A stretch of DNA of 40,474 nucleotides from Rickettsiales bacterium (GTDB taxonomy: Bacteria > Pseudomonadota > Alphaproteobacteria > Rickettsiales > UBA1997). The notes under the pieces are model-generated. The model was given only the letters and a program-made list of their open reading frames with translations. It had not been told where the DNA came from and did not search any database. The stretch covers positions 1 to 40,474 of the forward strand of contig JAIRXW010000003.1 in assembly GCA_031268035.1 (NCBI GenBank). The letters are read 5' to 3'. The position numbers were made by a program, and so were the translations under genes. Below, in pieces: positions 4,901 to 40,241 of this stretch (its first letter is position 1; every line of letters begins with the position of its first letter).

Positions 4901-7900
4901 ATTCTAGACCAGAGGTCAAACCAGATACTCTCTCAAAAATTATAAAACCCTATAAAAAAACCACAGGCACCACAGGTATATTAGGCACTATACTATTAAC
5001 GATCTTGCCGGGTAAGGATTCTCTCGAAAGATATGGTTGCACTGAATTTAAAAGACCAACTTTTAACTACGGACAGTATGGCTGTAAGATTCCAAATGAC
5101 GATAGTAGCTACATAAGTATTTCCTCAAATCCCGAAAAGGCCATCAATGGAATGGATATAAACTCCTTTAGTGCACCGAGGGATGCTAAACTTAAAATAA
5201 ACGTTTGTTCAAGGTACACCAGTGATGTATATTCGAATAATACATGTGGCGAAAGAGAAAAAAGTGATTATAGCGATAAATGCGTATACATTGGTGATTC
5301 TGGCCAGGAAACTCTAGAGGAAGCCAAAAACGGGGTTTGGTATTTTACAGAATCCACTGGAGGCACTAGGTTTCGTACTGAACAGAAAACAAGTAGAGAA
5401 ACATTGGTCTTTAGGGATTTCCACACATACCACTACTGCTATTCGGATATGAACAGAGAATTTCAGGACGGTTCAAGTGTCGGAGTCATATACGGGGATG
5501 GAGTATTAAGCGGAGCTATCATTTCTTTAGTAGCATGTCCCATCGCATTTTTTTTTATATGTGCTCCCCTAGTAACAACCGTTATCACTCCCGGAATATT
5601 TTTGGCAGTTAGAGCTTCAGATTGGCAGATTAATTTACAAAATGATCTGCAAATTGCTCGTGACTACAATAAAATTACAGGCTATGAAGAAAAGGGTTTT
5701 ATCAGTAAAGCATTTGTAACTGATAATAACGATTATATGTACAGGTTCTATCCAAGAGCTAAAAATATAGAAGATGATCTGAGAAATAAATTGGAAACCA
5801 ATGTTGACAGCGAAGGAAGTAGATTCTACCACGGCAACACTAGAGGCAGGGATATAATAGAAAAATGTAATCTGGGTAATCTATTCCAAGATTTGAATAA
5901 CTGCAGGGGCTCAAACGAGTGCAACTATAAATACCAATATAACAAACTAGCCGAAGATGGTTCCTCTTTAGGGGTCTGCGAAGAGGAGAATTTAATGAAT
6001 TGTATCCAAGACTCTCAAAAAATCTGTTTAGAATCCTATGGAGCTAGCTTCGTGTCCAATTCTGGAATAGACAATGATTTTTTAACCAAAACTGGTGCTT
6101 TCCTAAAATATTTTGAAAACGGGGCTATAATAAAAGATGAATGGGGAACTTCAAGCACGAAGGGCCACACTGACTACGTGCCCGTTGATATAGTTTATTT
6201 TACAAAAGACAAACAAACATTGGCGCAACTTAAAAACAATGAGAATTGTAAGTTTAGCAAATATGGAGACCCGATTGGGGATCTTTCTAGATGCAGGGGC
6301 TTTGAGCATGAAAACCTATTCTACACAGAAAGTCAAACGGTAAAGATGCCGCTCCTAACTTCACCATTTTTTTTCTACACTCTGGTCACACCTAAAAATA
6401 TGCCAGAATTATTTAACCCCACATTGATAGTAGTTGGTTATTATCTCTTCTCTAATGCTGATATTGAGGTAACCTACAGCACCCCAGATAATGTAATTTT
6501 AGATTTTTTTAACCCAAAAATAAGATACGACTATTCCTTCATAGGAGGGGTTAACGACCCAGATTTTGATAATATTTTGGCTGAATATAATAACTTTATA
6601 TCCGCAGTGCCGATATATGACGAATACAGCAGCCCCTATATTCTAAAATATAAAAGTAATAATATTTCCGAACTAGAGTATAGTTATGTACTGCATAAAA
6701 CCTACAGCAAGGACATTCACAATGAATATATACCTAAAGTCTGTCTATATAAAATATCGGTCGTTCCCGAGAAGGGCAATAATAATGTTAGTTTGAATTT
6801 GACACCCTGTTTAGGCACCGGATGTTTCCGGGCGATTAGCGGAGATGAGAATTTTATATTGGTAGATAATGACGTAGAGTGTCATCCGAGAATACCGCCA
6901 AATTTTAGTGATTTCATATTTAAACCCGACAAAAACATGGCCTACAACAGGGCATTTATAAATGTCTACCTAGGGCCAAAAAATATATCTAGTGAAAATA
7001 TAATGGATGAAAAAAATGCCAAATATTACAGTCTAAGAGAGGGAGATAAATCGTACGTAGAAAATTTTGGAGAAAATAAAATTCTGGGCTATGGTCTAAA
7101 TTTTTCACACAGTTATTGTTCCAAAGCCTACCACGACTATTACCTGTATCTCGACCAAATCGCAAAGGAAAAGGCTTCTCCAAACGGGGATACGGCCAAA
7201 ATTAACAGACTGCTTAAAAATATAGGGACCATCGAAAATATAATTATGCCGGATTGTGACGAAGAGGAGGGCATTGTCAGCGAAGTGCTAATAAATGCAG
7301 ATAAAATGAAAACCCTGAAGAATGTCGGGGTTAGCACAAAAGTAGTTGTGAAAGAGATCGCTAGAGTCAAAAAATATAATGAAAACTATGGGGGACACAG
7401 TGAAATATGTGTCAGCGATTACGATATTGAAAAAATATTCAAATTACGGGAAAAATTTGGAGCAGACGAGCGCGAAATGCCGACGGTTTTGGTTTTCAAA
7501 GCAAGCCCCGGTAGAAAATCGAAAACAAAATGTGTTTTGAGTAGCCTAAGCATGAATCAGAAAGATTGTCTCGAGGCAGAACAGGTATACGTGTTTTGTT
7601 CCGATTACGACATAAAGCAAACATCTAACTGTGAATATGTTTTAAATGTTAATAGTTTTGAAATGGTCTATGTGAAAAAGATTAACTGCCTAAATTATCT
7701 GGGCGCCACCATAAATGAAAATAACATCGAGGCCATAAAGGCCTGCTTCAAGGGTGGTTTTAACTATAGGGGAACCATTTACAACGCAGATGGGGGGAAA
7801 AAAGAAAAATGCACCTGTAAGATTTTAGGGTCAAGAGAAATGTTCGAAACAGAGTTATATGATTCACGGCCCATGACTCCAAGAGAGTACGGCCTGTGCA

Positions 7901-10900
7901 TTGATCTAAAAAAACCTATAATATGTCCTGCAGTTAAATACTACGACTCCTCAAAACAATATACGAATAATGAATTGGCACTCAACAGAACAGAGGAAGA
8001 ATTAGAAGAAGGGCTAAAAACCGACTATGAACAACACATCTGGAGAGCTGACGAAAAACAGGTTGGCATACTACCCGCCGTCTTCTATAATATAACCCTG
8101 GGACATGCTGAATTTCCATCCAGTGTCTACTGCGAAGCAGATATCGGAAGAGAAGATGGGGAATCCTACTATAATGAAAATTGTATTGGGGGCAGTAAAT
8201 TTGTAATGGGCGAGTGTGTTGGATTTTGGAAACAGAATGATAATAATGTACCAAAAGCCATATGTACAGCTAAAAAAAGCAACACTGGAACGATACTATA
8301 CGAATACGAATTAGTTAGAGAGGCCGATGACGAAAATTCATCGGATAGAAATAAATATGAATGCGTCAGATACTACTGCCCAAACGTCGGCTATGATGAT
8401 CTTGGCTATGAAATATTAGACGAAAGAGATATTGACATTAAATTTGCTAGTCAATTTTCCAAAGTTGAAATAAATGACTATGTGAACGTGGCACTGACTG
8501 ACTATAGATCCTTTGTAAATAATGAGGAAAAGAGCCCTAAAACAATAGACACCCGGGGCTCTTTCAACGGCTTTGCTATATGGAAAAAAATAGTGTCCCT
8601 GGACTACGCCCAGCTAGTCCAAAGTAAACAGTGCCTAACTGGCTTTGCTCCGGCTGGTTCCAGCTATATAATAAAAATATCATCATACAATGATGATAAT
8701 AATGACTATGATGCAATTATTCTCCCCTATTCGAGTATTGTAGCATTGTATAAAAATCAAGTCACAACTGCCAACAGCTACTATTCGAGACAAAATTTTC
8801 CAAAAAGAATATGTAATCAGATGGGAGAATGGTTAAAGGTGGATGATATGTATAATAATGCAACCATAGACAAAAACAACAAGGCCCAAAATTTTTATCA
8901 TAACGCTACAGGTAATTTTTGGCTGTCCGTTCTTGCCAATGATGTCAACCAGGGTTTAACTGATAACATAGGCCTATATGGTAATAATTATTGCGAAAGA
9001 CTGGTTTGCGGCACCATTATTACTAAAAATGAAAACATATATTTAAACGAAGTGCTGAACGGAGCACGTCAAGCTAACTATGGCCAAATCTCAAAATACA
9101 CCACCTGGAGACATTCGGGGGGCGCAAATTGGGATAATATCTCAAGTAGCAGAAATTCAACATCAAAGATAGAAATGGAGGGAGCCTTCAGTGACTCCAG
9201 CAGAAATATAATGAACATATTTAATAACAACAACATAAGCGACACCATTATCGACAACAAGTATAAATATGTTAAAAAAGTCCGGGGAACGTGCTCTAAT
9301 ATTTTTGGATATTATAATAGAGACAGCGAATTTAGTGGACTGGGCGAATTTGCTGGACAGTTGTCCTCCCTGAGGCCTAGGGGGTTCGCAGAGGTCGATC
9401 CAAGGGAAACGACTCTGCTACTCGATGGTAAAAAGACCTCGGAGCCAACTAGAGTCTGCACAAGCGTCAGCCTATGGGGGGGTATCACCAATAGATGTTT
9501 CAGAGCCTGTGAAATGCTGAATATATATAACGCAAAACTCCATCCTTCACTCTACGAGAACAAGAAAAATCTCAAGCCATCCGAAAATTATTACGTAGAA
9601 AATCATCATATACTCAATGTAGACACTAGAGGAGAAGAAGCCCTCAGCGAAAGTTACCGGGAAAGTCGTCTGAGCCTCTACTCTCTTCGCGAATCCGATA
9701 GCTACAGAAACTTTATGCTCGGAGACTATCTAACGGGTGGAGCAACATGGCCACGTAGTATTGTAAATACCAAAAGCGCCATAGAAACTAAAACCAGTAG
9801 CGAAAAAAAGGGGCTGAGATATGTGGAAGTTACGGGTAATTGCGATTCCACCTATAATAGGACTAGCGACAATAAACCAAGCCAATATGTGGTCCGAAGT
9901 TTAGAGTCCAGGCCAAAACGCAAATGCTACGAGGATGGCACCTGGGGTCAGGTCGAGGGTGACACAAGATGTCTTTTGGCCAAAAACTGCGTGCCATTTG
10001 ATTTCAGAGTGGAGGATATGGCTAATTTGATCAAATTGGGAGAGGGCGGCAGGCAAAATTTTGATGCTATCAATACATTCATCACAAATATTTACTACAA
10101 CCAAAGAAGTTCTACGGCCACCTGCACGGCAAATGAAAATGGCAGAAACGAATACGGCTGCGCAATTCTACGGTTTGATGCTGGAAACACCACCATAGAT
10201 ACAGTTATAAAAAGCACTGAAAATAGCAGTGATTCCGGAGCCTTTAGTGAAAACGATCTAGGCATTGTAAATAGCTCCTATAATAAACCGAAGTTAAACC
10301 AACAGTCAATATGTTGTCTGTCGGAGGTATGTCGCTCGGCAGACAATAGTAAAAACTACGTTGCCGGCTGGAGTCTAAATACCTATGATATTGGAGACTA
10401 TTTTGTGCCAAAAAGCTGCAAAGTTTTGGACTATATTAACGCCGAATACACTACAAATAATTTTTATATTTATACGTCCGGTGTTGAGGATATCGGTATA
10501 AAAAACACAAAATATCTGAACCGTCTAAAATTTGTAAGTGATGAAAATAAGGCAATAAAACCGCACTATGCCAAAAGTAGTTTTTTGCATCTTGTCTATA
10601 ATAGACTACACAGTGATTTGATGGGTAATTATGTAGAAAAATTACTCCTAGACGGAGAAACCATAGATGATTCAGAAAAAAGTATCCAGATAGGTACACA
10701 GCAATACGAATCCTATCAGGTTAGAGCGACATGTGATGAAAGGCTATTTTACAATGAAAATACGGGAGATCAATACTTCAGCAAAGATATAGTTTTTGAG
10801 TGCAGAATTCTTAACAATGATGAGGTTCAATTTGCCTACAGTGATAAAACAAAAAGCACCAATGGTTCCCTGGGTGATAAATTAATAAGGGCGGAGGATT

Positions 10901-13614
10901 GTAAACCAAAAATGTGTGGGGTCGGTCCCGTATACCAAAGCCAATGGAGTCACAGCTACGTCAAGGATGTGGCGGTTTCGGAAGATAAATATGGTCTAGA
11001 GAAGAATATTTTTTCAGCATATAAATCATCTCTAACCTGTGAAACTAATAATAAAGCTTTTATCGTAGATGCTGGGGAAAGTAATCTTAATGAAGAAAAT
11101 GTGGAATTCTATACAAATAGCGGCACAAGTTATAAACAATATGGATTCATCAAAAAATTAACAGCCGAATGCCTCACCTCAACTCATGAAAATAATAAAA
11201 TAAATGGCAAAACAAAGTTGAAGGACTATGACCTACATGTCTACGGCGAGTTAGACAATGCACCATTGCCCCATAGATTTTGCAGCGACATTGGCAAAAC
11301 AGAATGCGCTACGGTCAGTGAAAACGAACTGATAAACAATGAAAAAGATTTTTTGGAAAAATACTGTGTAAAAATGAGTTGCCCGGGAAAAGGATTAAGG
11401 TATGACAGTGAGGACAGAAAAATTCTATACAAACAAGACAGCAACTTTTTCAACCTGCCGAATGAGGACTATAATTTTGGTGATGTAATTGTAATACAGT
11501 CCTATTTGGGTGATTTTGATGACAATAAAATAGTTTCAAAGGGAGCAATAAAAAAGAACATGATTAAAGGAGAATATCTCCAGAACCCAAATAATGCCTT
11601 CAATGGGATCACCGGAAGTGTCTGTCCAGAAACTTCCGACATATATAATGATACAATACCAAATTACTCTATCAGCACATTTATTGCAAATAATGGAGAT
11701 GATCCAGATATTGTTCAGGGATGCTTCAACTTACTCGAAGGTGGAGCCAACAGCCTAAAGAAATCCTCTAGCTGCGAGGAGGGCTATAAGAGCCTAGGTG
11801 ACAATATGTGCGCTCAATATAGAATTAAAAAAACGGCAGAAGGAGAAGAGGAAATTGAAATTGTAAGCACATACGATAGCATTTCGGAATTTAAAGCTAC
11901 CATTAGAGTATACCTAACCGGAAACGCTGGCTATTCGGAGGAAACAAAACAGGCTGCCGTAGAATCTCTAATGACCATGTACCCACCCAACAGTCAGATA
12001 ACGAACGAATTGAATATTATAGATAAAGAGGCGAAACAATATGCCCACGAAGATACTGTGACTAAGTTCAAAGATCTAAAGGAGTCTCTGATATGTAAAT
12101 ACGATGATGAAATAACCGCCTACAGCGAAACAGATGAGAAATACGCGGGAGTTGAGTGGTACCAATTTGATGGTAAAATCTATGGTCTGGTGGAAAATGC
12201 ACTTGAAACAGAGGGATGTACTAAAGATGTGCAGGATGGAGAAACCCCTAGAACAATATCTGGGAAATTTTTTCAGGCACGCAACGTATTTGACGGTTAT
12301 TATATAGAGTCTTACAACAACAAATATAGAGACCTTTTAAGCGCCTTTAAAAATAAAATAAAATCTGGACAGGCGGCTTCTGAAATTAACGATCTATATA
12401 TGAAATGGTGTAAAATGTACAAAATGAAGAATTTCCTCCTGAAAAACTGTGTAGATGTTCAAGAGACAAATGGAGAATCCGAAATAATTATGGTAAAAAA
12501 ATGTACAAATCTCGATAATTTTAATTTGTATCTCAAAGAGATAGCTGGAATAGAATATGAAGTTCTCTATACCGAAGGAGCTTCGCCTATGTTTAATTTC
12601 CAAGTGACTGAAACTGAAATAATGGAAGAAAATGATTCAGAGACTATCACTAAAACAAAATCCTACGGCCTGAATTTAAATAAAAACTCTAGTAATCAAT
12701 TTTTTTGCACCATCGGCATCGGATCCAGCGGGGGAGAAACTATTTCTGAGGAGACAGCTTGCACCGACAACCTAGATATGTATGCCTGGGATGCTAATAA
12801 TGCCTATAGTAAATATTTTTTAGATTTTCTAGGAAGTTCAGAAACAACTGGTTCCAGTGAAGAGAATGATAGTCTATTCAGCCCAAGATATCAGATAACC
12901 AAGTACATTGAAAGGGAAGATTCTCTAAAAAAGAATTGTGAATCTATCTATAAAAAATTTCTAACGGCTAAGGAGATTTTCGAAGGAAATACCGGCAACG
13001 CTAGTTTTAGAAGTGGATTTTTTATGGCAATGAAGTGCACTCCAAATGGGTGGGAAATATTAGATTCCCCGTCATGCAAAAAAAGGTGTTCTACTAACTC
13101 TGGTGATTTCATAGTTAATTCGTCGGGAGTTGGAAGATGGGCTGTCAAAATAACTGCTAACAATATTAGGCATAGCAGAAGCTATAAACACACAATAAGT
13201 GCCACCGCATCTTCAGCCTGTTGTGGAGGGGATTCTAGAAGCCAGAGGGCTGAAGTTTGGTACAGCTGTGAGGACGGTGTGGCCGCCACTTCCAAAAAAA
13301 CGGAAACTGACTATGGTCTCGAATGGAGCTTAGATCATAAAGCAAATGGATGCTATTGGGCAGCTTTTGCAGCGTGGTGGGCTGTTATAGCTTGCCTATG
13401 TGCGCAGCAGGAATGCTCGGTTGTGTCTAGAATTCAGAGTCTTGACGGTGTTGGCCCAGATTACTCCCACAGGGGGAAAAGCGACAGTAAGGCCAGACTT
13501 GTTATTGTATGCCCGGGAGGAAACGATGATGGATTTCTATATAATGAAAGGGGAGACAGAGACTGTAAAATAGATAACTGCACTGATATACGCTATAGTG
13601 TAATAAATAAATGA
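1993..13614 (+). CDS. Giant secreted cysteine-rich repeat protein (3873 aa), function unknown
   Basis: I do not recognise this protein. Residues 1-37 look like a Sec signal peptide: KKK, a hydrophobic core near 17-30, and cleavage after VRA. The mature part is rich in Asn, Tyr, Ser, Asp and Glu and contains about 130 cysteines (hand count) spread over its whole length, suggesting an oxidised extracytoplasmic fold. Visible structure: two related segments beginning NCYLKSC (461) and NCYLKNC (574); four or more modules with Cys, a few residues, Gly-x-Trp and further Cys (from C2274, C2489, C2645, C3682); a strongly hydrophobic stretch at about 1174-1206; and a Trp/Ala/Cys-rich hydrophobic patch near 3787-3803. 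An AAAGGT ribosome binding site precedes the ATG. Codon use resembles the neighbours and the frame is uninterrupted, which argues for active selection. A surface adhesin, a conjugation/T4SS-associated exoprotein (compare Cys-rich TraN or the extended VirB6 proteins of Rickettsiales) or an effector are all possible; none is shown. Confidence 0.85.
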   Translation: MKKKGGYFCLVPWYLRGALVLCLGCCIAYMHPEHVRAKEYLNCNDIGTIDELADSNFLSYKSRIGTIVNSRDLSTLQFIFYYFLKLPDSLDDDDNPRELFIPVINDENLDSDFLSCGFDAEEVFECENSRLWNSGECTRETNIDGNVQEIIDCKKFDNQRLLEENSTPSEDGSETNKIACYPPNHICNKYLENVFNNYYNVNGIHFSSDETLPGTFFIYKKNVIPEGEFKNCELTKFTCDIKLKNESPGHGKNIVFKNLLNQERHSANEKFIENIFAGLGIKAFFKFVGSCKTGDADCNQILNSYFYYKYIDGTQLDSQTTVYYFEKNIYYQNIGQLCDGYLPTCREINVGESFSSALYNNGKNSNNNFGARKNFYETQLGNGKINSLYEIQEENVWFANNDNFKNYNCLAIHSDSANENDSDIGYCSDLSEEKNNLKYENGLTTKGKSIASGGTLLKMPNCYLKSCIDLTTEELTVIAEKGKIDGKYCSEYYWLSNTEGFKYFPRENPIYCSNLENKIPEGKQLVFRQGIFEYVGCKRGDNGYPLMDEDGICKSNEAATYYSYGGGLNKKRDNCYLKNCFSLTSAERKVISEAKLTNIGFELERSYGIDVENGVESEYDKSNIPLYCDSGFVFSEDIADFKGFDHLNLNVIPCFEMSPEQLRAMGSRGASSMILFTNLLKSYDTNNVYGFCRTHYIPLDTLNQQHDEYSLFLENVFVLANEIDRAPGNDAYMSFFNSGVFGTLNMYNTKKMSDFNLQSIVRSDYRKVPFSHNDIKKFKNIAQYGNICGYLDNNFPYYNADIITYDSTLIKNNPKLSSVVSIIKDKNENYTKCLSEANGQTSKSFNLGDSTIPEDCKSCYNADSSEQDKCLYGKDNCKIYAYNYGCKVANCSGNNLKYCEEEDRVMERIAECSKYKALSNGYSSSFFDCGLYDRENENKKKIFKDFETDLGKENINKINNACNSLLPLTDSRPEVKPDTLSKIIKPYKKTTGTTGILGTILLTILPGKDSLERYGCTEFKRPTFNYGQYGCKIPNDDSSYISISSNPEKAINGMDINSFSAPRDAKLKINVCSRYTSDVYSNNTCGEREKSDYSDKCVYIGDSGQETLEEAKNGVWYFTESTGGTRFRTEQKTSRETLVFRDFHTYHYCYSDMNREFQDGSSVGVIYGDGVLSGAIISLVACPIAFFFICAPLVTTVITPGIFLAVRASDWQINLQNDLQIARDYNKITGYEEKGFISKAFVTDNNDYMYRFYPRAKNIEDDLRNKLETNVDSEGSRFYHGNTRGRDIIEKCNLGNLFQDLNNCRGSNECNYKYQYNKLAEDGSSLGVCEEENLMNCIQDSQKICLESYGASFVSNSGIDNDFLTKTGAFLKYFENGAIIKDEWGTSSTKGHTDYVPVDIVYFTKDKQTLAQLKNNENCKFSKYGDPIGDLSRCRGFEHENLFYTESQTVKMPLLTSPFFFYTLVTPKNMPELFNPTLIVVGYYLFSNADIEVTYSTPDNVILDFFNPKIRYDYSFIGGVNDPDFDNILAEYNNFISAVPIYDEYSSPYILKYKSNNISELEYSYVLHKTYSKDIHNEYIPKVCLYKISVVPEKGNNNVSLNLTPCLGTGCFRAISGDENFILVDNDVECHPRIPPNFSDFIFKPDKNMAYNRAFINVYLGPKNISSENIMDEKNAKYYSLREGDKSYVENFGENKILGYGLNFSHSYCSKAYHDYYLYLDQIAKEKASPNGDTAKINRLLKNIGTIENIIMPDCDEEEGIVSEVLINADKMKTLKNVGVSTKVVVKEIARVKKYNENYGGHSEICVSDYDIEKIFKLREKFGADEREMPTVLVFKASPGRKSKTKCVLSSLSMNQKDCLEAEQVYVFCSDYDIKQTSNCEYVLNVNSFEMVYVKKINCLNYLGATINENNIEAIKACFKGGFNYRGTIYNADGGKKEKCTCKILGSREMFETELYDSRPMTPREYGLCIDLKKPIICPAVKYYDSSKQYTNNELALNRTEEELEEGLKTDYEQHIWRADEKQVGILPAVFYNITLGHAEFPSSVYCEADIGREDGESYYNENCIGGSKFVMGECVGFWKQNDNNVPKAICTAKKSNTGTILYEYELVREADDENSSDRNKYECVRYYCPNVGYDDLGYEILDERDIDIKFASQFSKVEINDYVNVALTDYRSFVNNEEKSPKTIDTRGSFNGFAIWKKIVSLDYAQLVQSKQCLTGFAPAGSSYIIKISSYNDDNNDYDAIILPYSSIVALYKNQVTTANSYYSRQNFPKRICNQMGEWLKVDDMYNNATIDKNNKAQNFYHNATGNFWLSVLANDVNQGLTDNIGLYGNNYCERLVCGTIITKNENIYLNEVLNGARQANYGQISKYTTWRHSGGANWDNISSSRNSTSKIEMEGAFSDSSRNIMNIFNNNNISDTIIDNKYKYVKKVRGTCSNIFGYYNRDSEFSGLGEFAGQLSSLRPRGFAEVDPRETTLLLDGKKTSEPTRVCTSVSLWGGITNRCFRACEMLNIYNAKLHPSLYENKKNLKPSENYYVENHHILNVDTRGEEALSESYRESRLSLYSLRESDSYRNFMLGDYLTGGATWPRSIVNTKSAIETKTSSEKKGLRYVEVTGNCDSTYNRTSDNKPSQYVVRSLESRPKRKCYEDGTWGQVEGDTRCLLAKNCVPFDFRVEDMANLIKLGEGGRQNFDAINTFITNIYYNQRSSTATCTANENGRNEYGCAILRFDAGNTTIDTVIKSTENSSDSGAFSENDLGIVNSSYNKPKLNQQSICCLSEVCRSADNSKNYVAGWSLNTYDIGDYFVPKSCKVLDYINAEYTTNNFYIYTSGVEDIGIKNTKYLNRLKFVSDENKAIKPHYAKSSFLHLVYNRLHSDLMGNYVEKLLLDGETIDDSEKSIQIGTQQYESYQVRATCDERLFYNENTGDQYFSKDIVFECRILNNDEVQFAYSDKTKSTNGSLGDKLIRAEDCKPKMCGVGPVYQSQWSHSYVKDVAVSEDKYGLEKNIFSAYKSSLTCETNNKAFIVDAGESNLNEENVEFYTNSGTSYKQYGFIKKLTAECLTSTHENNKINGKTKLKDYDLHVYGELDNAPLPHRFCSDIGKTECATVSENELINNEKDFLEKYCVKMSCPGKGLRYDSEDRKILYKQDSNFFNLPNEDYNFGDVIVIQSYLGDFDDNKIVSKGAIKKNMIKGEYLQNPNNAFNGITGSVCPETSDIYNDTIPNYSISTFIANNGDDPDIVQGCFNLLEGGANSLKKSSSCEEGYKSLGDNMCAQYRIKKTAEGEEEIEIVSTYDSISEFKATIRVYLTGNAGYSEETKQAAVESLMTMYPPNSQITNELNIIDKEAKQYAHEDTVTKFKDLKESLICKYDDEITAYSETDEKYAGVEWYQFDGKIYGLVENALETEGCTKDVQDGETPRTISGKFFQARNVFDGYYIESYNNKYRDLLSAFKNKIKSGQAASEINDLYMKWCKMYKMKNFLLKNCVDVQETNGESEIIMVKKCTNLDNFNLYLKEIAGIEYEVLYTEGASPMFNFQVTETEIMEENDSETITKTKSYGLNLNKNSSNQFFCTIGIGSSGGETISEETACTDNLDMYAWDANNAYSKYFLDFLGSSETTGSSEENDSLFSPRYQITKYIEREDSLKKNCESIYKKFLTAKEIFEGNTGNASFRSGFFMAMKCTPNGWEILDSPSCKKRCSTNSGDFIVNSSGVGRWAVKITANNIRHSRSYKHTISATASSACCGGDSRSQRAEVWYSCEDGVAATSKKTETDYGLEWSLDHKANGCYWAAFAAWWAVIACLCAQQECSVVSRIQSLDGVGPDYSHRGKSDSKARLVIVCPGGNDDGFLYNERGDRDCKIDNCTDIRYSVINK
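3373..3900 (+). repeat. Two related segments inside the giant protein (about 113-residue spacing)
   Basis: The protein segment starting N461 (NCYLKSC-IDLTTEELTVI, later IYCSN) is matched by one starting N574 (NCYLKNC-FSLTSAERKVI, later LYCDS). The underlying DNA is similar too, with aattg(c/t)tatctgaaaa(g/a)... at 3373 and 3712. The spacing of 339 bases is a whole number of codons, so this looks like an old in-frame tandem duplication that has diverged. Confidence 0.65.
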
Positions 13615-20723: not shown

Positions 20724-22373
20724 ATGTTTGCATCGTTAGTCGATAACTTCAAAAAATTTGATAGATGGCAGCTTAAAATCCCGCATTGGGTGTATCTACA
20801 AATGTTTACAGTGGTAAATCTGCTGCTATACAGCAGACCATTTTTCATATACTTCCTGCAAAAAAGACAGTTCATAGCTCCCTGGGCATTTTATCCAACT
20901 GTCCTTCTATTCTACCTGTTTTTTGGAGCACTGCTGAATGTAATTTTTCTAATAATTCTTCGCTATCCGGGCCCTAAAATAATGGGTGTTCTGATACTGA
21001 TGATCAATTCTGTCTGCCTCCATTTTATGAATCTCTACGGAATACAGATTGATGTCTACATGGTAATTAATGTGTTCGAAACCAATGGCAAGGAAATCGT
21101 TGATTTGATAAATTCGAGATTGTTTTTACATATGTTCCTTATGGGGGTACTGCCCTCAATATTCCTGATCAGAAAGATTAAAATAACCGAAGAAAACCCA
21201 AAGAGCAGCATTGCCTTCGGATCCGCATCTCTGGCCATAGCAGCTCTGTTTCTATTTTCAGGTGTTTTTCCTAAAAAATCCCGCAGATTTCTAAGGGCAG
21301 AGAACAGATACACCATGAACCATGTAATACCAACCAACTATATTCTTGCCGTTGGAAGATTTGTTAGCATAAAAATAAAAAAACTTATTTTTTCAAGAAA
21401 AATTATAGCCATAGGAGAGGATGCAAAAATTAGCTATAGAACAAAAATCAATGGGAAAAAAAATCTCATAATAATAATCATCGGAGAATCCGCCAGATCT
21501 CAAAATTTCTCTCTGAATGGCTATGGGGTAAAAACTAACGAACCTCTAGAAAGATTCAATGTCATAAGTTATCGAAACACCTACTCCTGTGGAACCAGCA
21601 CGGCACACAGTATTCCCTGTATATTTTCCCATAAAAGTAAGTCAGAATTTAATCCTCTGGAAAGTAAAAAATACGAAAATGTCCTGGATATTTTTAAAAA
21701 ATTTGGATTTGGCCTACTGTGGCTGAGTAACAATGGCGACTGCAAAGGGGTTTGTGGGAGAATCAAATATCTATCAACCAAAAATTTGGATATAAATAAT
21801 TTTGACCGGTCTCTAACGGTGGCCCTTCGCAGAGCTATCGTGCATCTGGACAGAGAAAATAACATCATAATTCTAAACCAACGGGGTAGCCACGAGCCCT
21901 ACCACGAAAGATATCCCGCCGAAATGGAAAAATTTAAACCCAGCTGTAAAAAAAACGAAGATCAGTGTTCCCTAGAGGAATTGACTAACGGCTATGACAA
22001 TAGTATATACTACAGTAGTCTAAACTCCAGCGAGATATTGGATCTGCTGGTGTCTAAAGAGAATGAATACAACAGTATGCTTCTCTACGTATCTGATCAC
22101 GGCACAGGCCTTGGCGAGGATGGCATTTGGACGCACGGCATGCCCTATGATGTAGCTAATGATTATGTGAAAAAAGTTCCTATGTTCCTGTGGTTTTCAA
22201 GCGGCTTTCTGGAGGAATTTCGTATCGATACTAAATGTCTGGGAAATATGATTGATGACAAATTGGCCCACGATAATCTGTTTCATTCTCTGCTGGGACT
22301 CTACGGAATAGAAAGTAGATACTATAGGGGCGATTTAGATATTTTTAAAAATTGCAGAGTCAAAGACAGGTAG
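20724..22373 (+). CDS. eptA: EptA-like phosphoethanolamine transferase (membrane sulfatase-fold enzyme)
   Basis: The 549-residue protein has about five N-terminal membrane helices (residues 25-200) and a periplasmic alkaline-phosphatase-fold domain. Diagnostic segments are IIIIGESARSQNFSLNGYG (from about 250; Glu metal ligand), SCGTSTAHSIPC (from about 289; the Thr is the expected phosphoenzyme nucleophile) and SDHGTGLGEDG with a following HGMPY (from about 457; Asp/His ligands). Paired cysteines match the disulfides of the family. EptA-type enzymes transfer phosphoethanolamine from phosphatidylethanolamine to lipid A or core sugars; related enzymes modify other glycans, so the exact acceptor is uncertain. 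Its presence suggests lipopolysaccharide or a comparable surface glycolipid. The porin-like gene follows 34 bases downstream and could be cotranscribed. Confidence 0.87.
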   Translation: MFASLVDNFKKFDRWQLKIPHWVYLQMFTVVNLLLYSRPFFIYFLQKRQFIAPWAFYPTVLLFYLFFGALLNVIFLIILRYPGPKIMGVLILMINSVCLHFMNLYGIQIDVYMVINVFETNGKEIVDLINSRLFLHMFLMGVLPSIFLIRKIKITEENPKSSIAFGSASLAIAALFLFSGVFPKKSRRFLRAENRYTMNHVIPTNYILAVGRFVSIKIKKLIFSRKIIAIGEDAKISYRTKINGKKNLIIIIIGESARSQNFSLNGYGVKTNEPLERFNVISYRNTYSCGTSTAHSIPCIFSHKSKSEFNPLESKKYENVLDIFKKFGFGLLWLSNNGDCKGVCGRIKYLSTKNLDINNFDRSLTVALRRAIVHLDRENNIIILNQRGSHEPYHERYPAEMEKFKPSCKKNEDQCSLEELTNGYDNSIYYSSLNSSEILDLLVSKENEYNSMLLYVSDHGTGLGEDGIWTHGMPYDVANDYVKKVPMFLWFSSGFLEEFRIDTKCLGNMIDDKLAHDNLFHSLLGLYGIESRYYRGDLDIFKNCRVKDR

Positions 22374-22407: not shown

Positions 22408-23859
22408 ATGGTGTATATAGCCCTACTATTGGCCCTGTCTATGGCCAGTCAATTTTCCAGGATTTCTTTAGCCCAGAACCCCAGGAAAGGCGATATTTCA
22501 GAGACAAAATTCTATGGCAGTTTTGAATGCGGCTACACTAACAACAGAGCTCTCTACGCAACATTTGGCTATGAAAGACAACTGTGGACCTGTAGCCAGG
22601 CTATTTTGGGAGTCGAAGGTGAATATAGGTGGGCAGATAATCAAAATGGGTATATGATTTTCAAATTTGAGTTTGCTCCTCTATACAATTCAATAAAAAC
22701 CATCAATGGAAGAAAAACTGACATGGTGTCACTTCCAGAGGCGGAAGTTGAAAAATATAGAAAAAATGGAATAGTGGTCCCGGACACTGGAATTCATAGA
22801 CTAACCTATGAGCTGATTAGAAGCCCTCTGGGCAACGGAAGAATTTTGGAAATAGATGGCAGTTCAGAGTACGTGAATTGGTATAAAAATCAGGGAAATA
22901 GGCTCTACTATCTGGAAGATCACCCGATAAGAGAAATGTACATAGGATTTTTTTCGGAAAATAGAAAACATAAAATTTCTGTCGGAAGAATGAAAAACCT
23001 GTTGAGTTTTGATGAACAGGATATGATATGGCACGAAGACGCGTGGTTTGCGCCAATGTCCTATTGGATCTCGAGGGAAATATATTCTGGAATTAAATAT
23101 TCTTTCAAAACAAATTTTGGTCCAGTTCTGGAGATAGCAATTTTTTCCGGGGATGGTAATCCGACAAAAAACGGAATTTACTATATAGACAATAGCGGCA
23201 GTCCGAACAAAAAAAGCAATAACACTCCCACCATAGAACTTAATCTAGGGAGTAGTCTGAACTACGGTAATTTAGACAGCAGTGTGTTCTTTGGCCTGGA
23301 AAGAGGAACTATCGGCTCTGTCTGGGATGTGGCCATAGAGGAGGGAAAACATAATAAAAACATAGTGGCTGCCGGGTTCGATACAAAATACCACCTAAAT
23401 GGCTCTATTCTGGATAAGGTTAGATTATACTTCCAATATACAAAATTCACCTCGGGACTAAAGAGTGCCTCCAGCCAAAATAAGGGCCACCCAGCCTTTA
23501 GGGATATTGTGCAGGACGGTTTCTTTGTTGGCCTGGATTTTACTCTTGGGCGCGATCTTTTTGGTCAGGCAAAACTTGGTTTTACCTGGGAATTGTTTAG
23601 CAGATATGACTATAGAGCTCATGTCTACTCACTGGGCAATGCCTATGAAAATGAAGGGAGAGAGGGAAAAGAATGTCTAAAGGAATATGTAAATTCGAAA
23701 CAGAGAAGCTTTATAGTGAACGCTAAATTTTCAGTGAATAAAAATATTTTTCTGAATCTGGCCGCGCACTTTCTCTACGATCCGCTCTATTGGATTTCCG
23801 ATGTTCTGAAAAACCACGGCAACAATAGATACAAACTGTCCCTGGAGGTAAAATTCTAA
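22408..23859 (+). CDS. Porin-like outer-membrane beta-barrel protein
   Basis: The 483-residue product starts with a signal peptide (MVYIALLLALSMASQFSRISLA, cleavage before QNP) and ends in LSLEVKF, with a C-terminal Phe preceded by alternating hydrophobic residues, the usual signal for outer-membrane barrel insertion. The body is rich in Tyr, Asn and Gly with many alternating amphipathic stretches and no membrane helices. It resembles Gram-negative porins in size and composition, but I cannot place it in a named subfamily. An ATG at 22388 is out of frame and closes after ten codons. The gene ends 42 bases before the tRNA gene on the other strand. Confidence 0.72.
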   Translation: MVYIALLLALSMASQFSRISLAQNPRKGDISETKFYGSFECGYTNNRALYATFGYERQLWTCSQAILGVEGEYRWADNQNGYMIFKFEFAPLYNSIKTINGRKTDMVSLPEAEVEKYRKNGIVVPDTGIHRLTYELIRSPLGNGRILEIDGSSEYVNWYKNQGNRLYYLEDHPIREMYIGFFSENRKHKISVGRMKNLLSFDEQDMIWHEDAWFAPMSYWISREIYSGIKYSFKTNFGPVLEIAIFSGDGNPTKNGIYYIDNSGSPNKKSNNTPTIELNLGSSLNYGNLDSSVFFGLERGTIGSVWDVAIEEGKHNKNIVAAGFDTKYHLNGSILDKVRLYFQYTKFTSGLKSASSQNKGHPAFRDIVQDGFFVGLDFTLGRDLFGQAKLGFTWELFSRYDYRAHVYSLGNAYENEGREGKECLKEYVNSKQRSFIVNAKFSVNKNIFLNLAAHFLYDPLYWISDVLKNHGNNRYKLSLEVKF

Positions 23860-29856: not shown

Positions 29857-30812
29857 TAGGAACTAGCACAAAAAAAAATGTTATAGTTATAGCTGGTCCG
29901 ACTGCTAGCGGTAAGTCCTGTCTGGCATTGGAGTTAGCAAAAAAAATTGGGGGCGTCATTGTCAACGCCGATTCCGTGCAGCTGTATCAGGGTTTGCCGA
30001 CATTGGCGGCACAGCCAGGCCCTATGGATATGCAAATAGTAGAACACAGGCTCTATGGAATATTTTCTCCCAGAGAAAGGGGCACTCTGTTTGACTGGCT
30101 GATGCGCACAAAAATCGAAATAGAAGGGATCTCAAATGATAGCAATTTGCCGATAGTTGTCGGAGGAACTGGATTGTATATATCTAGATTACTCGATGGA
30201 ATAATTCTAGATATGCCAGATGTTGACCCAGTTCTTCGAAATGAATTAGACGCTCTATACAACGAGCTCGGCTGGGATAAATTTTTTAAAATCGTCCAGC
30301 AAATTGACCCAGAAAGCGCCGCTAAAATTAGCTTTCACAACAGACACAGGCTCCTGAGGGTCTATGAGGTCTATAGACTTTCCGGGAAAAAATTGAGTGA
30401 ACTGACTAGACTGCCCAATGAAAGAATAGTTGAACGCACTAGAATATTTCTAATAAATATTGTTCCGGCCAGAGACACGCTCTACGACAGGTGCAGCTCT
30501 CGCTTTAAAAATATGTTGGCCAACAGTGCTCTGGAGGAGGTCAGAGAATTTATAGCCAATTATCCTGATATCTCTGGCTCCAATTTGCCCATAGGGCACA
30601 CCATAGGGTTCTGCGAAATTAGCAGCTATTTAGACGACAAACTTAGCTATGGGGATATGATCGATCTAGTCATAAAAAATACCAGACACTACGCTAAAAG
30701 GCAATACACTTGGTTTAAAAATCAATTGAAAGATGTAGACCACAGCATAGATTACATTTTAACAGAGGACAATGTGACCGAAGCGGTAGAGGAAATTATT
30801 TCTAAATTATGA
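29853..30812 (+). CDS. miaA: tRNA dimethylallyltransferase MiaA
   Basis: The 319-residue protein carries IAGPTASGKSCLALELA (P-loop), VNADSVQLYQGLPTLAAQP, VVGGTGLYISRLLDG and a C-terminal ARRQ-like segment (YAKRQYTWFKNQ), all diagnostic for MiaA. It puts a dimethylallyl group on N6 of A37 in tRNAs that read codons beginning with U. The only suitable start is a TTG at 29853 inside the TTGA overlap with the transporter gene; AGGTAGGA lies just upstream. The stop overlaps the next ATG by four bases, so all three genes are probably translationally coupled. Confidence 0.94.
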   Translation: MIGTSTKKNVIVIAGPTASGKSCLALELAKKIGGVIVNADSVQLYQGLPTLAAQPGPMDMQIVEHRLYGIFSPRERGTLFDWLMRTKIEIEGISNDSNLPIVVGGTGLYISRLLDGIILDMPDVDPVLRNELDALYNELGWDKFFKIVQQIDPESAAKISFHNRHRLLRVYEVYRLSGKKLSELTRLPNERIVERTRIFLINIVPARDTLYDRCSSRFKNMLANSALEEVREFIANYPDISGSNLPIGHTIGFCEISSYLDDKLSYGDMIDLVIKNTRHYAKRQYTWFKNQLKDVDHSIDYILTEDNVTEAVEEIISKL

Positions 30813-31198
30813 AAATATATAACATATTTGTGAAGGAAAATGAAAAAATTGGCGGAGTGACCGATGTAATTGTTATAAAATCAGGCTTTAGCCCAAAAGC
30901 AGCAATTTTTAACATTTTTTGGTTTCTATCCAAGGGAATGTGGTGGGAGGCACTACTATACACCATAGCTATTGGATTGACGACCCTAGCGCCTCCCGTT
31001 TTCCGGATTTTTATCATATTCATATTTTCACTAGCAATTGGATTTTTTGCCAATTATCTGGAGATCCGCAATTTAGACAGGAAAAGAAACTATTATTTTG
31101 TGGGTTCAGCCCCTGGTAGGAACAAACGAGAGGCCAGATTAAATTTTCTGGAGGATATAAATAGAAAATACAGGGATAAAAATCAGGTTATATACTAA
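30809..31198 (+). CDS. DUF2628 family membrane protein
   Basis: The 129-residue protein begins MKIYNIFVKEN and continues with a GFSPKAAIFNIFWFLSKGMWWEALLY segment, the pattern of DUF2628 proteins: a short N-terminal strand region, then two or three membrane helices (about residues 50-95), ending in a basic cytoplasmic tail. The function of the family is unknown. Translation starts in an ATGA overlap with the miaA stop, which fixes the start and ties it to the operon. About 65 bases separate its stop from the stop of murF on the other strand. Confidence 0.75.
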   Translation: MKIYNIFVKENEKIGGVTDVIVIKSGFSPKAAIFNIFWFLSKGMWWEALLYTIAIGLTTLAPPVFRIFIIFIFSLAIGFFANYLEIRNLDRKRNYYFVGSAPGRNKREARLNFLEDINRKYRDKNQVIY

Positions 31199-32945: not shown

Positions 32946-34049
32946 ATGGCGCTACAATGTGGGATAGTCGGATTACCCAACGTTGGGAAATCCACCTTAT
33001 TTAATGCTCTGACTCAGACAATGAAGGCCGAGGCATCAAACTATCCGTTCTGCACAATAGCCCCCAATGTTGGTAGGGTTGCGGTTCCAGACAGAAGACT
33101 GGAAAAACTCGCTAAAATGGCAAATTCTAAGGAAATTATCAGTTCCCAGATGGATTTTATCGACATAGCGGGGCTGGTCCGCGGGGCCAGTAGAGGCGAA
33201 GGCCTTGGCAACCAATTTCTTTCAAATATTCGGGAGGTTGATTGTATATTAAATGTTGTCAGATGTTTTGCCGATGAAAATGTGACCCATGTCGAAAAGA
33301 ACATTGATCCAATTAGAGATATTGAACTGATACAGACAGAACTAATTTTGGCCGACATAGAAAATCTAGATAATCGGCTGCGAAATCTCACTAGGAAAAA
33401 TAAAATTTCAGATAATATAAATTCCGATGGACAGAGCGCGCTCATAGAAAAGATTTTATCCACTCTGAATGAAGGAAGGCCGGCCTTGGACAGTCGTATT
33501 TCTCCAGAGGAAGAGAAAACCTTCAGGATGCTGCAGCTTCTAACGGCGAAGAGGCAATTTTTTGTTTGTAATGTCGAAGAAAGGGATATCGGCCATGGCA
33601 ACGACTATACAAATGCAGTGAAGAAATATTGCGAACAAAATCACTATCAACAGGTGATCTGCTCCGCCAAGATAGAATCTGAAATTGCTCTGCTGGAGAG
33701 CGAGGAGGAGAAAATGGAATTTCTTTCGGCCATTGGCCTCCCCGAAAGAGGGCTTGATAAAATTATAAAAATATCCTATAGTCTACTGGGTTTGATTGAT
33801 TTTTTTACCGTTGGCCCAAAGGAAGCCCACTCCTGGACTCTGAAAAAGGGGCTGACGGCTCCTAGGGCAGCAGGGGTCATCCACACAGACTTTGAGAAGG
33901 GCTTCATTAGCGCAGAGGTCATAGGCTATGAGGATTACGTAAATCTTGGGGGCGAAGAAGCCTGCAGAACAGCCGGGAAAATGAGGCTGGAGGGGAAAGA
34001 ATATGTGGTGAGAGATGGAGATATTGTACATTTTAGATTTAATGTGTGA
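32946..34049 (+). CDS. ychF: Redox-regulated ATPase YchF (Obg-like)
   Basis: The 367-residue protein starts with QCGIVGLPNVGKSTLFNALTQ (G1) and has the YPFCTIAPNVG segment, DIAGLVRGASRGEGLGNQFL (G3 and following loop), a central coiled-coil insertion (about 130-200), and a C-terminal TGS domain beginning IDFFTVGPKEAHSWTLKKG and ending near RDGDIVHFRFNV. YchF/OLA1 proteins belong to the Obg GTPase family but prefer ATP and associate with ribosomes. The NVGKST and following motifs are intact and the length is standard. The unidentified membrane protein at 34077 follows after 27 bases. Confidence 0.97.
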   Translation: MALQCGIVGLPNVGKSTLFNALTQTMKAEASNYPFCTIAPNVGRVAVPDRRLEKLAKMANSKEIISSQMDFIDIAGLVRGASRGEGLGNQFLSNIREVDCILNVVRCFADENVTHVEKNIDPIRDIELIQTELILADIENLDNRLRNLTRKNKISDNINSDGQSALIEKILSTLNEGRPALDSRISPEEEKTFRMLQLLTAKRQFFVCNVEERDIGHGNDYTNAVKKYCEQNHYQQVICSAKIESEIALLESEEEKMEFLSAIGLPERGLDKIIKISYSLLGLIDFFTVGPKEAHSWTLKKGLTAPRAAGVIHTDFEKGFISAEVIGYEDYVNLGGEEACRTAGKMRLEGKEYVVRDGDIVHFRFNV

Positions 34050-34076: not shown

Positions 34077-34937
34077 ATGATAAATTTCAAAAGTGTTTTT
34101 AATGGCAAGAGACTGGGAAATTTATGGAATAAAATAACCTATTTTATGGGCAATTTCTGGCCCCAGATCCTAGTGCTATTCTCTATAGCTGCTGTTCTGT
34201 CTCTAAAATATACCTATGACAGAACGTTTCGTTCGAGCGAGATGACAAAATTTGTAAAAAATTCAAGACATGCGGGCAATGCAATCTTTATAAATAAAGG
34301 ATTTTTATTGACGAACTACAAATCACTAGCAACAATATGCAAAACAACAAAATCCGACCAGAGCATCAGAGTTTTCATAATTTTTAACGGCGAAGCCATA
34401 AAGGTCGACATTGTAGAAACCGACCGGGAGGCTAATCTCACTCTACTGAAGATAGACCCTAGTGAAAGATACTATATAAATGTAAATAATTTTGCCCTAT
34501 TCCCTAATGTCAGTGGCAGTAACTATGAATATATGAATTCCAATGTTTTCATATCAAAAATGGTGAACAACCCAGATAGTAGTTTCTATGACCACTATGT
34601 AATAACAGGAATTTCGGAGGGAGGTTACAGCGTAAAAAGCTTAGATGTGTTCAGAAAAAACTTTGGCGAAGCCGTTCTCGATGAAAGACTTGAACTCATT
34701 GGTCTGACCGACGGTAACACCGCTAGCAACAAACTAAAATTTTTTAACAACGAAATCAGAATCATAGAGCAGGGAAGAATAAAAAATTTCCTAAAAAAGC
34801 ATAACATACGCTACTACAAAAACATAAAAAATGCAAATCTTAGGGACCTTCAGAACTATTCTGGAGATATAAATGTAGAACTCATATGTTACATTAAAGA
34901 GGCCATTCCGCAGAGAGTGATAAAAAGATATAGATAG
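34077..34937 (+). CDS. Membrane-anchored trypsin-fold pseudoprotease-like protein
   Basis: The 286-residue protein has a basic N-terminus, one membrane helix at about residues 29-46 and a likely periplasmic domain. That domain resembles the HtrA/trypsin-2 fold: GNAIFINKGFLLTNYKSLA matches the strand and loop with the catalytic His (TNxHV), ETDREANLTLLKID matches the Asp loop (DLALLKI), and RKNFGEAVLDERLELIGLTDG matches the Ser loop (GNSGGPVLD...GLIGI). In this alignment His is Lys, Asp is Asn and Ser is Phe, so the whole catalytic triad is gone. It is most likely a catalytically dead binding or scaffold protein, if the fold is right. It lies 27 bases after ychF and has no good ribosome binding site. 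Confidence 0.55.
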   Translation: MINFKSVFNGKRLGNLWNKITYFMGNFWPQILVLFSIAAVLSLKYTYDRTFRSSEMTKFVKNSRHAGNAIFINKGFLLTNYKSLATICKTTKSDQSIRVFIIFNGEAIKVDIVETDREANLTLLKIDPSERYYINVNNFALFPNVSGSNYEYMNSNVFISKMVNNPDSSFYDHYVITGISEGGYSVKSLDVFRKNFGEAVLDERLELIGLTDGNTASNKLKFFNNEIRIIEQGRIKNFLKKHNIRYYKNIKNANLRDLQNYSGDINVELICYIKEAIPQRVIKRYR

Positions 34938-35005: not shown

Positions 35006-36424
35006 ATTGGTCATTATTTTACGAAATCAGAGACTATACAAAAATATATATATGAAACCTCGCTAAGATATTTTATAGAGAGAAGTTTTTACCTGGTTAA
35101 TCCGGGAGTTAGATATGTACATAATTGGCACATAGAGGTTCTGGGAAAGGCACTGGAAGAGGTCTATAGAGGCAATATTAAAAGACTAATAATAAATATT
35201 CCTCCACGTTACCTCAAATCATTCTGCGTCAGTGTTTCATTCCCCGCTTGGATTTTGGGCAAAAATCCCAGCAGAAGAATAATAGTTGCAAGTTATTCTG
35301 AAAAATTGGCCATCAGACACTCGCTGGACTGCAGAATTATTATCCAAAGTCTCTGGTTCAGAAATATTTTTCAAAATTGCAAACTAAGCGCCGATCAAAA
35401 CGAAAAACATAGATTTTCCACAACAAAAAATGGCTATAGATTTGCCACTTCCATAGGCGGAACTCTAACCGGAGAAGGCGGAGACATTTTAATAGTGGAT
35501 GACCCCCATAATCCCCAGCAGGTGATGAATAGCAAGTACAGACAAAAGGTATTTGATTGGTATGGAAACACATTCGTTAGTAGATTAAATGATAAGAAAA
35601 ATGGATCAATAGTAATTGTTATGCAGCGTCTGCATGCAAATGATCTGACGGGCTACCTGCTAGATAGAGACTACGGCGACTGGACTCACCTAAGTTTGCC
35701 CATGCAATTTGATAGCGATAGAACCATTGTCCTGGGCGATTTCCGTAAAAAAGTCAACGCCGGTGACTTTCTATTCCCCAAAAGAGAGGCTGGAGATGAA
35801 ATGAAAAAAATGAAGCTGGCTATGGGCAGCTATTTTTTTAATGCCCAATACCAGCAGAAACCAATGGCCAACGACTTCGGTATGATCAGAAGCGAATGGT
35901 TCCGGGAATTTACTGAAAATTATCAGTTCAACGACATATACCTGAGTTTCGACACAGCTATAAAAAGTGGCGCCAATAATGATCCAACAGTTTGCACTGT
36001 GTGGGGAAAATATGAAAATAACTACTATCTGCTGGAGGTCATTAGAAAATGGCTAGAATATCCAGAACTTAAACGCCAATCCATCGATCTTATCAGAAAA
36101 TGGAAGCCTCTTCATGTTCTCATAGAGGACAAGGGTAGCGGCCAAGCCCTTGTGCAGGATCTCAAAAGAGAAACGGGCCACAGCATTATAGCCATCGGGG
36201 TTAAATCCGATAAGATAACAAGATTTGCCAGCATAACGCCTCTATTTGAAAGTGGCAGAATATTTCTAAAAAGTAATGAAGATTGGTTATTTGACTATAA
36301 AAATGAACTGTTAACTTTTCCAAATGGAATCCATGATGATCAGGTTGACTCCACTAGCCAATTCCTGGGTTGGATCATAGGCCACAATGGTGGCCTCCGG
36401 AACATAAGAATGATTCGTCTCTAA
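35006..36424 (+). CDS. Phage/GTA-type terminase large subunit (TerL), orphan, start unresolved
   Basis: The translated frame matches a large terminase throughout. It has NWHIEVLGKALEEVYRG, IINIPPRYLKS (ATPase P-loop region), FPAWILGKNP, SYSEKLA, ATSIGGTLTGEGGDILIVDDP (Walker B region) and VIVMQRLHANDLTG, then the RNase-H-like nuclease with SFDTAIK, IEDKGSGQAL and IHDDQVDS. It thus keeps both the ATPase and the nuclease residues of a DNA-packaging motor. There is no ATG in frame: an in-frame stop lies at 35000-35002, the first frame-compatible codon with any start potential is ATT at 35006, and the first standard start (TTG, 35255) falls after the P-loop. I give the extent of the homologous frame. 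No portal, capsid or small terminase gene lies nearby. It may be a decaying relic, use a rare start, or contain a sequence error upstream. Confidence 0.8.
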   Translation: MGHYFTKSETIQKYIYETSLRYFIERSFYLVNPGVRYVHNWHIEVLGKALEEVYRGNIKRLIINIPPRYLKSFCVSVSFPAWILGKNPSRRIIVASYSEKLAIRHSLDCRIIIQSLWFRNIFQNCKLSADQNEKHRFSTTKNGYRFATSIGGTLTGEGGDILIVDDPHNPQQVMNSKYRQKVFDWYGNTFVSRLNDKKNGSIVIVMQRLHANDLTGYLLDRDYGDWTHLSLPMQFDSDRTIVLGDFRKKVNAGDFLFPKREAGDEMKKMKLAMGSYFFNAQYQQKPMANDFGMIRSEWFREFTENYQFNDIYLSFDTAIKSGANNDPTVCTVWGKYENNYYLLEVIRKWLEYPELKRQSIDLIRKWKPLHVLIEDKGSGQALVQDLKRETGHSIIAIGVKSDKITRFASITPLFESGRIFLKSNEDWLFDYKNELLTFPNGIHDDQVDSTSQFLGWIIGHNGGLRNIRMIRL

Positions 36425-39173: not shown

Positions 39174-40241
39174 TCATTTGTCTGTCTTCTTTTCAGATTT
39201 CTCTTTTTCAAGTCTCCTATATTCTTCATAAACTGCATCCGAGTAGTCTATGGAGTTTTTGGTGAAAACATTATAATTTTCGGCTTCAAATTTATGTTCC
39301 ACATTTTTTTTGGCCTGTAATATAATGTCTAGATCTCCCACCATACAATCTGCTACATGGTATTTAACCGTACTCTCTTCGACCTTCTCTTCGATTATCA
39401 AATCTTTTCTACAGTCTTTCCTGAAGCTAAATTTAGAAAAATCATAGTTTTCTCTATCGGGGGCAAAAACCATATCATCAAAAAACCCGTGGTTTTTAGC
39501 CCAAAAATGGAAAATTTGGCGCCTATAGGGAGCGCATATGGACATTTGTCTATAGTATAAAATGGGGATAGGAAATACCATGGCTGTAAAAACCATTGTT
39601 TTAAATAGAAATTTTATGCGGGGCCGAATATTCGGGAAAAATACAAAAAATTGCCCTCTTCTCTGGGAAATAAATTTTTCACAGGCCCCACAGAGCAAAC
39701 GGAAAAAATGCTGAAGCATCAACAGAGGTTTCAGCACTAGGATAATTCCTGTGTAGAGAGTCCAAACTATGTTGGTAAACATAAACCAATTGAACTTCAT
39801 CACAGCAGGGTTGGTGGAATAGTAGGTGATCATTAGCTCCAGAGGCAAAATTTCAAAGATTATGCAGACACTGACCACCATGTTTTGTTTTCTAAAGTAT
39901 AGCAGCATTGCAATTACGTCTAGAGTTAAAAATATAGCAAATATAAAAGAATACCAAATGTATATGGCCAATTCATCTTCTAATTCTAAATCATAGAGCA
40001 AAAAGTCAGTGATATGATTATTCGGTGGAAACACACGCAGATATACTCTATAGTAGGCAATGGAGCAATAGCAAATTATAAAAGTAATCCCGAAGAATAG
40101 CCATAAATTATTCTTTCTGTTCTTTAGTTTGGAGAGGTAAAAACTAAGGAGCGCATTGGCGCTGAAAATCAAAGACCAGATCGACAAAATCAGAGATGGT
40201 TTCGAAAGAATTTTAAAGATTCTACTAAATTTGACTAGCAT
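39174..40241 (-). CDS. Unrecognised multi-pass membrane protein (355 aa)
   Basis: I do not recognise this protein. It has about six hydrophobic segments (near residues 12-35, 45-63, 92-116, 122-140, 150-175 and 208-228), followed by a soluble C-terminal part of roughly 120 residues containing WAKNHGFFDDMVFAP, two Cys (FRKDCRKD, VADCMVGD) and a Lys/Glu-rich end with an EEYRRLEKEKSEKK helix. The start ATG at 40241 opens a short basic lead before the first helix. It is convergent with valS and diverges from the gene starting at 40306. Membrane topology and codon use support a real gene; function is open. Confidence 0.7.
   Translation of the reverse strand: MLVKFSRIFKILSKPSLILSIWSLIFSANALLSFYLSKLKNRKNNLWLFFGITFIICYCSIAYYRVYLRVFPPNNHITDFLLYDLELEDELAIYIWYSFIFAIFLTLDVIAMLLYFRKQNMVVSVCIIFEILPLELMITYYSTNPAVMKFNWFMFTNIVWTLYTGIILVLKPLLMLQHFFRLLCGACEKFISQRRGQFFVFFPNIRPRIKFLFKTMVFTAMVFPIPILYYRQMSICAPYRRQIFHFWAKNHGFFDDMVFAPDRENYDFSKFSFRKDCRKDLIIEEKVEESTVKYHVADCMVGDLDIILQAKKNVEHKFEAENYNVFTKNSIDYSDAVYEEYRRLEKEKSEKKTDK

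Follow-up and report, generated by a model that had tools for sequence, protein, structure and literature searches.

A trypsin-fold membrane protein of Rickettsiales without a catalytic triad, probably kept as a periplasmic binding module

DegS is a catalytic protease with a periplasmic trypsin-like domain, a PDZ domain and an N-terminal membrane anchor, and it is activated by peptides of outer-membrane proteins. Two bacterial trypsin-type pseudoproteases were found in a literature search: MamO and PflC. According to its description (PMC4794232), MamO from Magnetospirillum is an alphaproteobacterial HtrA-type pseudoprotease working without catalysis, which promotes MamE-dependent proteolysis and binds metal; it keeps the His and Asp of the triad, has Thr for Ser, and possesses two surface metal-binding histidines and a C-terminal transporter domain. 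PflC from Campylobacter jejuni is presented in its source (PMC12222027) as a periplasmic, HtrA-derived protein without the triad, in which Asp is replaced by Asn and which, with its two PDZ-like domains, is a scaffold in the flagellar motor. Intact single-domain trypsin-like proteases (Trypsin_2; e.g. L066 and L075) are encoded in other Rickettsiales families; their start reads as a signal peptide, and His, Asp, and Ser are in place in 13/13 of them.

Here, we analyzed a gene from a 40,474-nucleotide stretch of DNA (the window; contig C25) belonging to a reduced Rickettsiales assembly of 922,595 bases (0.92 Mb). The genomes of its relatives are Rickettsiales MAGs, among which two originate in the rumen of roe deer and the colon of water deer. 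No paper describing the encoded protein was found in the literature search, most subscription journals lying outside its scope. An earlier note had proposed a trypsin-fold membrane protein in which the motifs TNYK, NLTLL, and KNFGEAVLD mark the replaced catalytic His, Asp, and Ser; each motif occurs once in the protein. The gene and its features are as follows.

32946..34049, + strand: ychF, directly upstream of the pseudoprotease gene with 27 bases between them; the two genes stay together across the window's subclade
34077..34937, + strand: putative pseudoprotease gene, a 286-aa ORF with an ATG start and homologs in relatives
34143..34229, + strand: predicted N-terminal transmembrane segment, residues 23-51, N-terminus inside (AlphaFold2 helix 11-51, hydropathy, and charge)
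34245..34811, + strand: residues 57-245, predicted to form a trypsin-like double-barrel domain (Z 15.1 for the model versus DegS/HtrA)
34320..34322, + strand: K82 at the catalytic His position (motif TNYK; profile and joint alignment)
34338..34340, + strand: C88, the family-wide cysteine after the His loop (Cys in 32/32 aligned rows)
34434..34436, + strand: N120 at the catalytic Asp position (motif NLTLL; profile and joint alignment)
34653..34709, + strand: putatively remodeled former Ser loop, residues 193-211, where the window's subclade has its highest density of invariant residues
34662..34664, + strand: F196 at the catalytic Ser position (motif KNFGEAVLD; profile and joint alignment)
34812..34934, + strand: C-terminal tail, residues 246-286 (41 residues), bearing C271 and aligning with the tail of intact relatives
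34887..34889, + strand: C271, the second family-wide cysteine, in the C-terminal tail (Cys in 32/32 aligned rows)

The protein shares its domain order, both cysteine positions, and the C-terminal tail with the intact Rickettsiales proteases, but it has no triad residue and a longer charged N-terminus before the membrane helix. MamO and PflC are its precedents, and it is a member of neither type. The seven closest proteins, which include the window protein, have no invariant His, so the surface di-histidine metal site of MamO is missing from this subclade; MamO-like metal binding was considered and found unsupported, the best His column reaching 3/7. No Pfam match to a MamO-type C-terminal transporter (TauE) domain was found in the window protein, whose tail comprises 41 residues. 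It likewise differs from PflC in having a membrane anchor and no PDZ-like domain in either the Pfam scan or the AlphaFold2 model, and from DegS in lacking both the triad and a PDZ domain (no Pfam match at E up to 10). The anchor, which agrees with the earlier description as a membrane protein, is predicted from a hydropathy peak of 1.68 at residues 23-41 and a net charge of +4 preceding that segment; the peak is borderline, and in the closest relative it is 1.44, i.e. below 1.6.

Single-sequence family searches and PDB sequence searches are, taken alone, too weak to decide homology. The score of Pfam Trypsin_2 (PF13365) on the window protein is 12.4 bits and does not reach the curated cut-off of 27.6, and that of the NCBIfam DegS model is 14.7 bits against a cut-off of 422.95. 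A phmmer match to the designed SAKe proteins (E 2.3e-12 for the whole chain) was discounted as a sum over near-identical repeats of approximately 8.5 bits each. A reference set of 14 intact single-domain relatives was aligned; it comprises 13 proteins from other families of the order and one from genome G007, and His, Asp, Ser, and two Cys are invariant in it. Profile-profile comparison of nine triad-less proteins with this set gave a probability of 97.9% and E 3.4e-13 (one comparison) over 227 columns, and the seven closest proteins alone gave 95.8% and E 7.8e-9. The alignment reaches into the tail and the second Cys, and pairs K with H, N with D, and F with S as well as the conserved Cys pair, which places K82, N120, and F196 opposite the triad as the motifs had suggested. 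In a shuffle control, 3,900 shuffled sequences from 13 homologs (300 each) were scored by a model of the 14 intact relatives. The window protein scored 22.7 bits versus 10.4 for the best shuffle, and 11/13 homologs beat every shuffle, the exceptions being the two proteins of genus g5. When the one row from the same family was removed from the model, the window protein scored 18.4 versus 8.8, and 10/13 homologs beat every shuffle. By this measure, the resemblance of the window protein to the intact relatives exceeds chance.

The fold was modeled by AlphaFold2 from the window protein and six named relatives (seven sequences). The best model (pLDDT 73.6, pTM 0.68; the remaining four models, pLDDT 59.5-66.6) has a long N-terminal helix at 11-51 and strands from 64 to 274. 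Foldseek found 286 matches in the PDB (E 0.001 or better), and V8, HtrA, DegS, DegP, Deg, and similar proteases fill the best 50 of them. A second structural aligner ranked DegS 6ew9 first (Z 15.1, 157 residues aligned, 2.7 A). A second AlphaFold2 model, led by the g5 relative L055 (32% identical), is weaker (pLDDT 69.7, residues 164-206 below 50); its best Z is 12.5, again to DegS (154 aligned, 3.1 A), and two MamO entries are among the matches listed, with Z 11.5. These models support a trypsin-like double-barrel fold matching the protease domains of DegS/HtrA, as the earlier note had anticipated, and not an unrelated one.

The first protein search covered 83 genomes, the window's own included, and produced clear matches (E 2.7e-6 or better) in 8 other genomes; the remaining rows had E 0.0016 or worse, and from these G032 was kept since its ORF had the same layout. 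A profile of nine rows revealed further members, while its weaker rows (DegP-sized frames, one tandem protein of G007, and short fragments) were not counted. In total, the set comprises 13 full-length proteins, the window protein among them, and one partial member, in 14/61 genomes of one Rickettsiales family and in five genera (g1, g5, g6, g7, and g10). The stops flagged in G029, G025, and G015 fall at the ORF ends or past them and leave the frames open for 290, 280, and 296 codons; the partial member, in G005, consists of the last 72 codons of the gene at a contig start.

In the 32-row joint alignment, the full-length members retain His in 0/13, Asp in 4/13, and Ser in 1/13 proteins, and none has two of the three. 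The His/Asp/Ser columns read K N F (window), R G F, K G F, I N N, D N I, N D T, and K D T, and in the remaining members S D I, S N V, K N S, S D V, E N L, and Q G I; the lone Ser, in G029, hinges on the alignment of a rebuilt loop. An intact triad was sought and found in no homolog of the clade, whereas it is present in 13/13 single-domain relatives outside the family. The three replacements themselves are variable already among the seven closest proteins (K/R/K/I/D/K/N, N/G/G/N/N/D/D, and F/F/F/N/I/T/T). Thus, as read from the alignment, the conserved trait is the absence of the triad rather than particular replacing residues. Both Cys columns contain Cys in 32/32 rows, hence in all 13 members, and C88 and C271 are probable disulfide partners. 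In a tree with 13 intact relatives of other families as outgroup, the 13 members form one clade (support 98/94), whose sister group consists of six G007 and G092 domains. The branches are long, and the program warned of this; the clade is recovered when the triad columns are left out (95/92), and either half of it, taken alone, still groups with the G007/G092 domains.

The order of ychF (named by reading and homology, without a family scan) followed by the pseudoprotease gene on the same strand, 8-30 bases apart, was observed for 7/7 full-length members from g1, g5, and g6. The g7 and g10 members have other neighbors, where seen, so the pairing characterizes the window's subclade rather than the clade as a whole. 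The gene is absent from G001 and G006, but ychF stands at a contig end in both, so that the neighboring position is off the assembly and the absence is uninformative; ychF was not found in G005, G011, and G022 at E 1e-20. The promoter and terminator scans of the region gave no useful signal, with 14 promoter-like sites versus 8.8 expected and no terminator-like site between the two genes.

Taken together, the protein is probably an inner-membrane-anchored periplasmic pseudoprotease that goes back to a secreted single-domain protease and has been retained as a module for binding without catalysis. A narrower form of this reading is that the dead paralog regulates DegP directly, pairing with it or feeding it, like MamO with MamE; PMC4794232 describes MamE-dependent processing as requiring MamO. 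The genome has one clear Trypsin_2 match, a 563-codon frame (DegP) in which His, Asp, and Ser were all seen on reading; the other match is faint (16.4 bits, contig C21, a 59-codon frame with a stop). The intact-family profile detected one long, DegP-sized frame (423-563 codons) in 14/14 pseudoprotease genomes, of which only that of the window genome was read as DegP; in three of these genomes it also matched the dead protein itself. An intact single-domain copy was not detected by this profile in any of the 14, several of whose assemblies are incomplete. However, no genetic linkage of the pseudoprotease to degP was seen, and genomes lacking the pseudoprotease have the DegP-sized frame as well, so their co-occurrence says little. 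In the class-wide search with the intact profile, 21/190 genomes had matches at E 1e-33 or better, with frames of 254 codons in G068 and 302-951 codons in all others. Direct regulation of DegP appears unlikely, and any link between the two proteins is a guess.

It is very improbable that enzyme activity persists through other residues. The invariant positions of the seven closest proteins include two cysteines and several polar residues but no His or Asp, on which ground this possibility was rejected; moreover, the cysteines are equally conserved in the 13 intact relatives with a normal triad and so are probably structural. Among the seven closest proteins, 35/286 positions are invariant, 29 of them in residues 52-286. 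Nine of these 29 lie within 193-211, in one 23-residue window (permutation p 0.026), a modest clustering in the old Ser loop. Here, E198 is invariant where the intact proteins have the second Gly, and F196 itself varies. From this pattern we infer that the former Ser loop may be a remodeled binding surface.

The gene could also be a decaying, functionless remnant in a reduced 0.92-Mb assembly, given that it evolves faster than ychF (43-64% versus 65-75% identity to the window within the genus), but this explanation is hardly credible. None of the 12 other full-length frames contains an internal stop, and both cysteines are kept in all members. The window protein and those of G002 and G004 share 51-64% identity, although 58-79% of the shared fourfold sites have changed in pairs with the window, a combination that a gene free of constraint would not show. 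For the closest pair (64% amino-acid identity), NG86 gives dN 0.29 versus dS 3.09 and YN00 0.33 versus 1.55; these ratios are rough, dS being near or beyond saturation, and for most other pairs dS is saturated, many allowing no estimate. Since the frames are intact while the synonymous sites are near saturation, selection appears to preserve the protein, and the computations indicate retention under purifying selection. Finally, the probability that the fold resemblance is only a product of motif picking or AlphaFold2 memory, as the single-sequence Pfam score below the cut-off might suggest, is negligible in view of the independent profile-profile and shuffle evidence and the second AlphaFold2 model.

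For the preferred reading of a retained binding module, the following course of events can be proposed. The ancestor would be a secreted single-domain trypsin-like protease of Rickettsiales with the conserved Cys pair, which in one family of the order gained a membrane anchor and lost catalysis. The trypsin-fold domain would then face the periplasm from the inner membrane, and its fold, Cys pair, and remodeled Ser loop would persist owing to a binding function that the domain still has, the target being most likely an envelope protein. It may act as an adaptor or regulator by non-catalytic binding at the periplasmic face of this membrane; by analogy, the chaperone or adaptor function suggested earlier is plausible. 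The case suggests that an old protease has apparently turned into a binding or regulatory protein in Rickettsiales, and points to an uncharacterized envelope factor kept by small-genome bacteria. The clade supplies many members, intact outgroups, and intermediate states, which allows the transition from enzyme to binding protein to be put in order step by step and tested.

Two tandem double-trypsin proteins were observed in G007 (L122:1-1308 and L120:2248-3516, frames of 436 and 441 codons), the 436-codon frame opening at the first base of its contig with the start missing. In both, Ser is the only triad residue left in copy 1, and copy 2 has His and Asp but no Ser. Scores against the intact relatives are high for the inner halves and low for the outer ones: a first-barrel half-domain model gives 42.6 and 38.5 bits in copy 2 versus 7.4 and 19.4 in copy 1, and a second-barrel model gives 16.5 and 24.9 bits in copy 1 versus 3.2 and 7.1 in copy 2. 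This pattern, seen in two proteins of one genome only, resembles what circular permutation by duplication would be expected to leave. Intact relatives with a single domain and a hydrophobic N-terminus are encoded at L121:1723-2508 (G007; a 279-codon frame) and L118:1514-2317 (G092), each adjoining a gene that reads as sucB. It is possible, though rather doubtful, that the secreted protease of the family moved to the membrane and then decayed in two ways, giving fully dead binding proteins in the five genera and, in a further genus, tandems whose inner halves (the second barrel of copy 1 and the first barrel of copy 2) form an active, circularly permuted protease caught midway.

Elsewhere in the window, ORFs of 3,873 aa (1993-13614), 483 aa (22408-23859), and 355 aa (39174-40241) have no Pfam match at E 0.001. 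Positions 20724-22373 encode a phosphoethanolamine-lipid A transferase-like protein (NF028537, 403.5 bits, below its cut-off of 500), and positions 30809-31198 a DUF2628 protein that faintly matches the Erum7620/ECH_0207 family. Directly downstream of the pseudoprotease gene, at 35255-36424, is an ORF similar to the phage terminase large subunit (TIGR01630, 85.3 bits), and a terminase-like ORF likewise lies 3' of the partial gene in G005.
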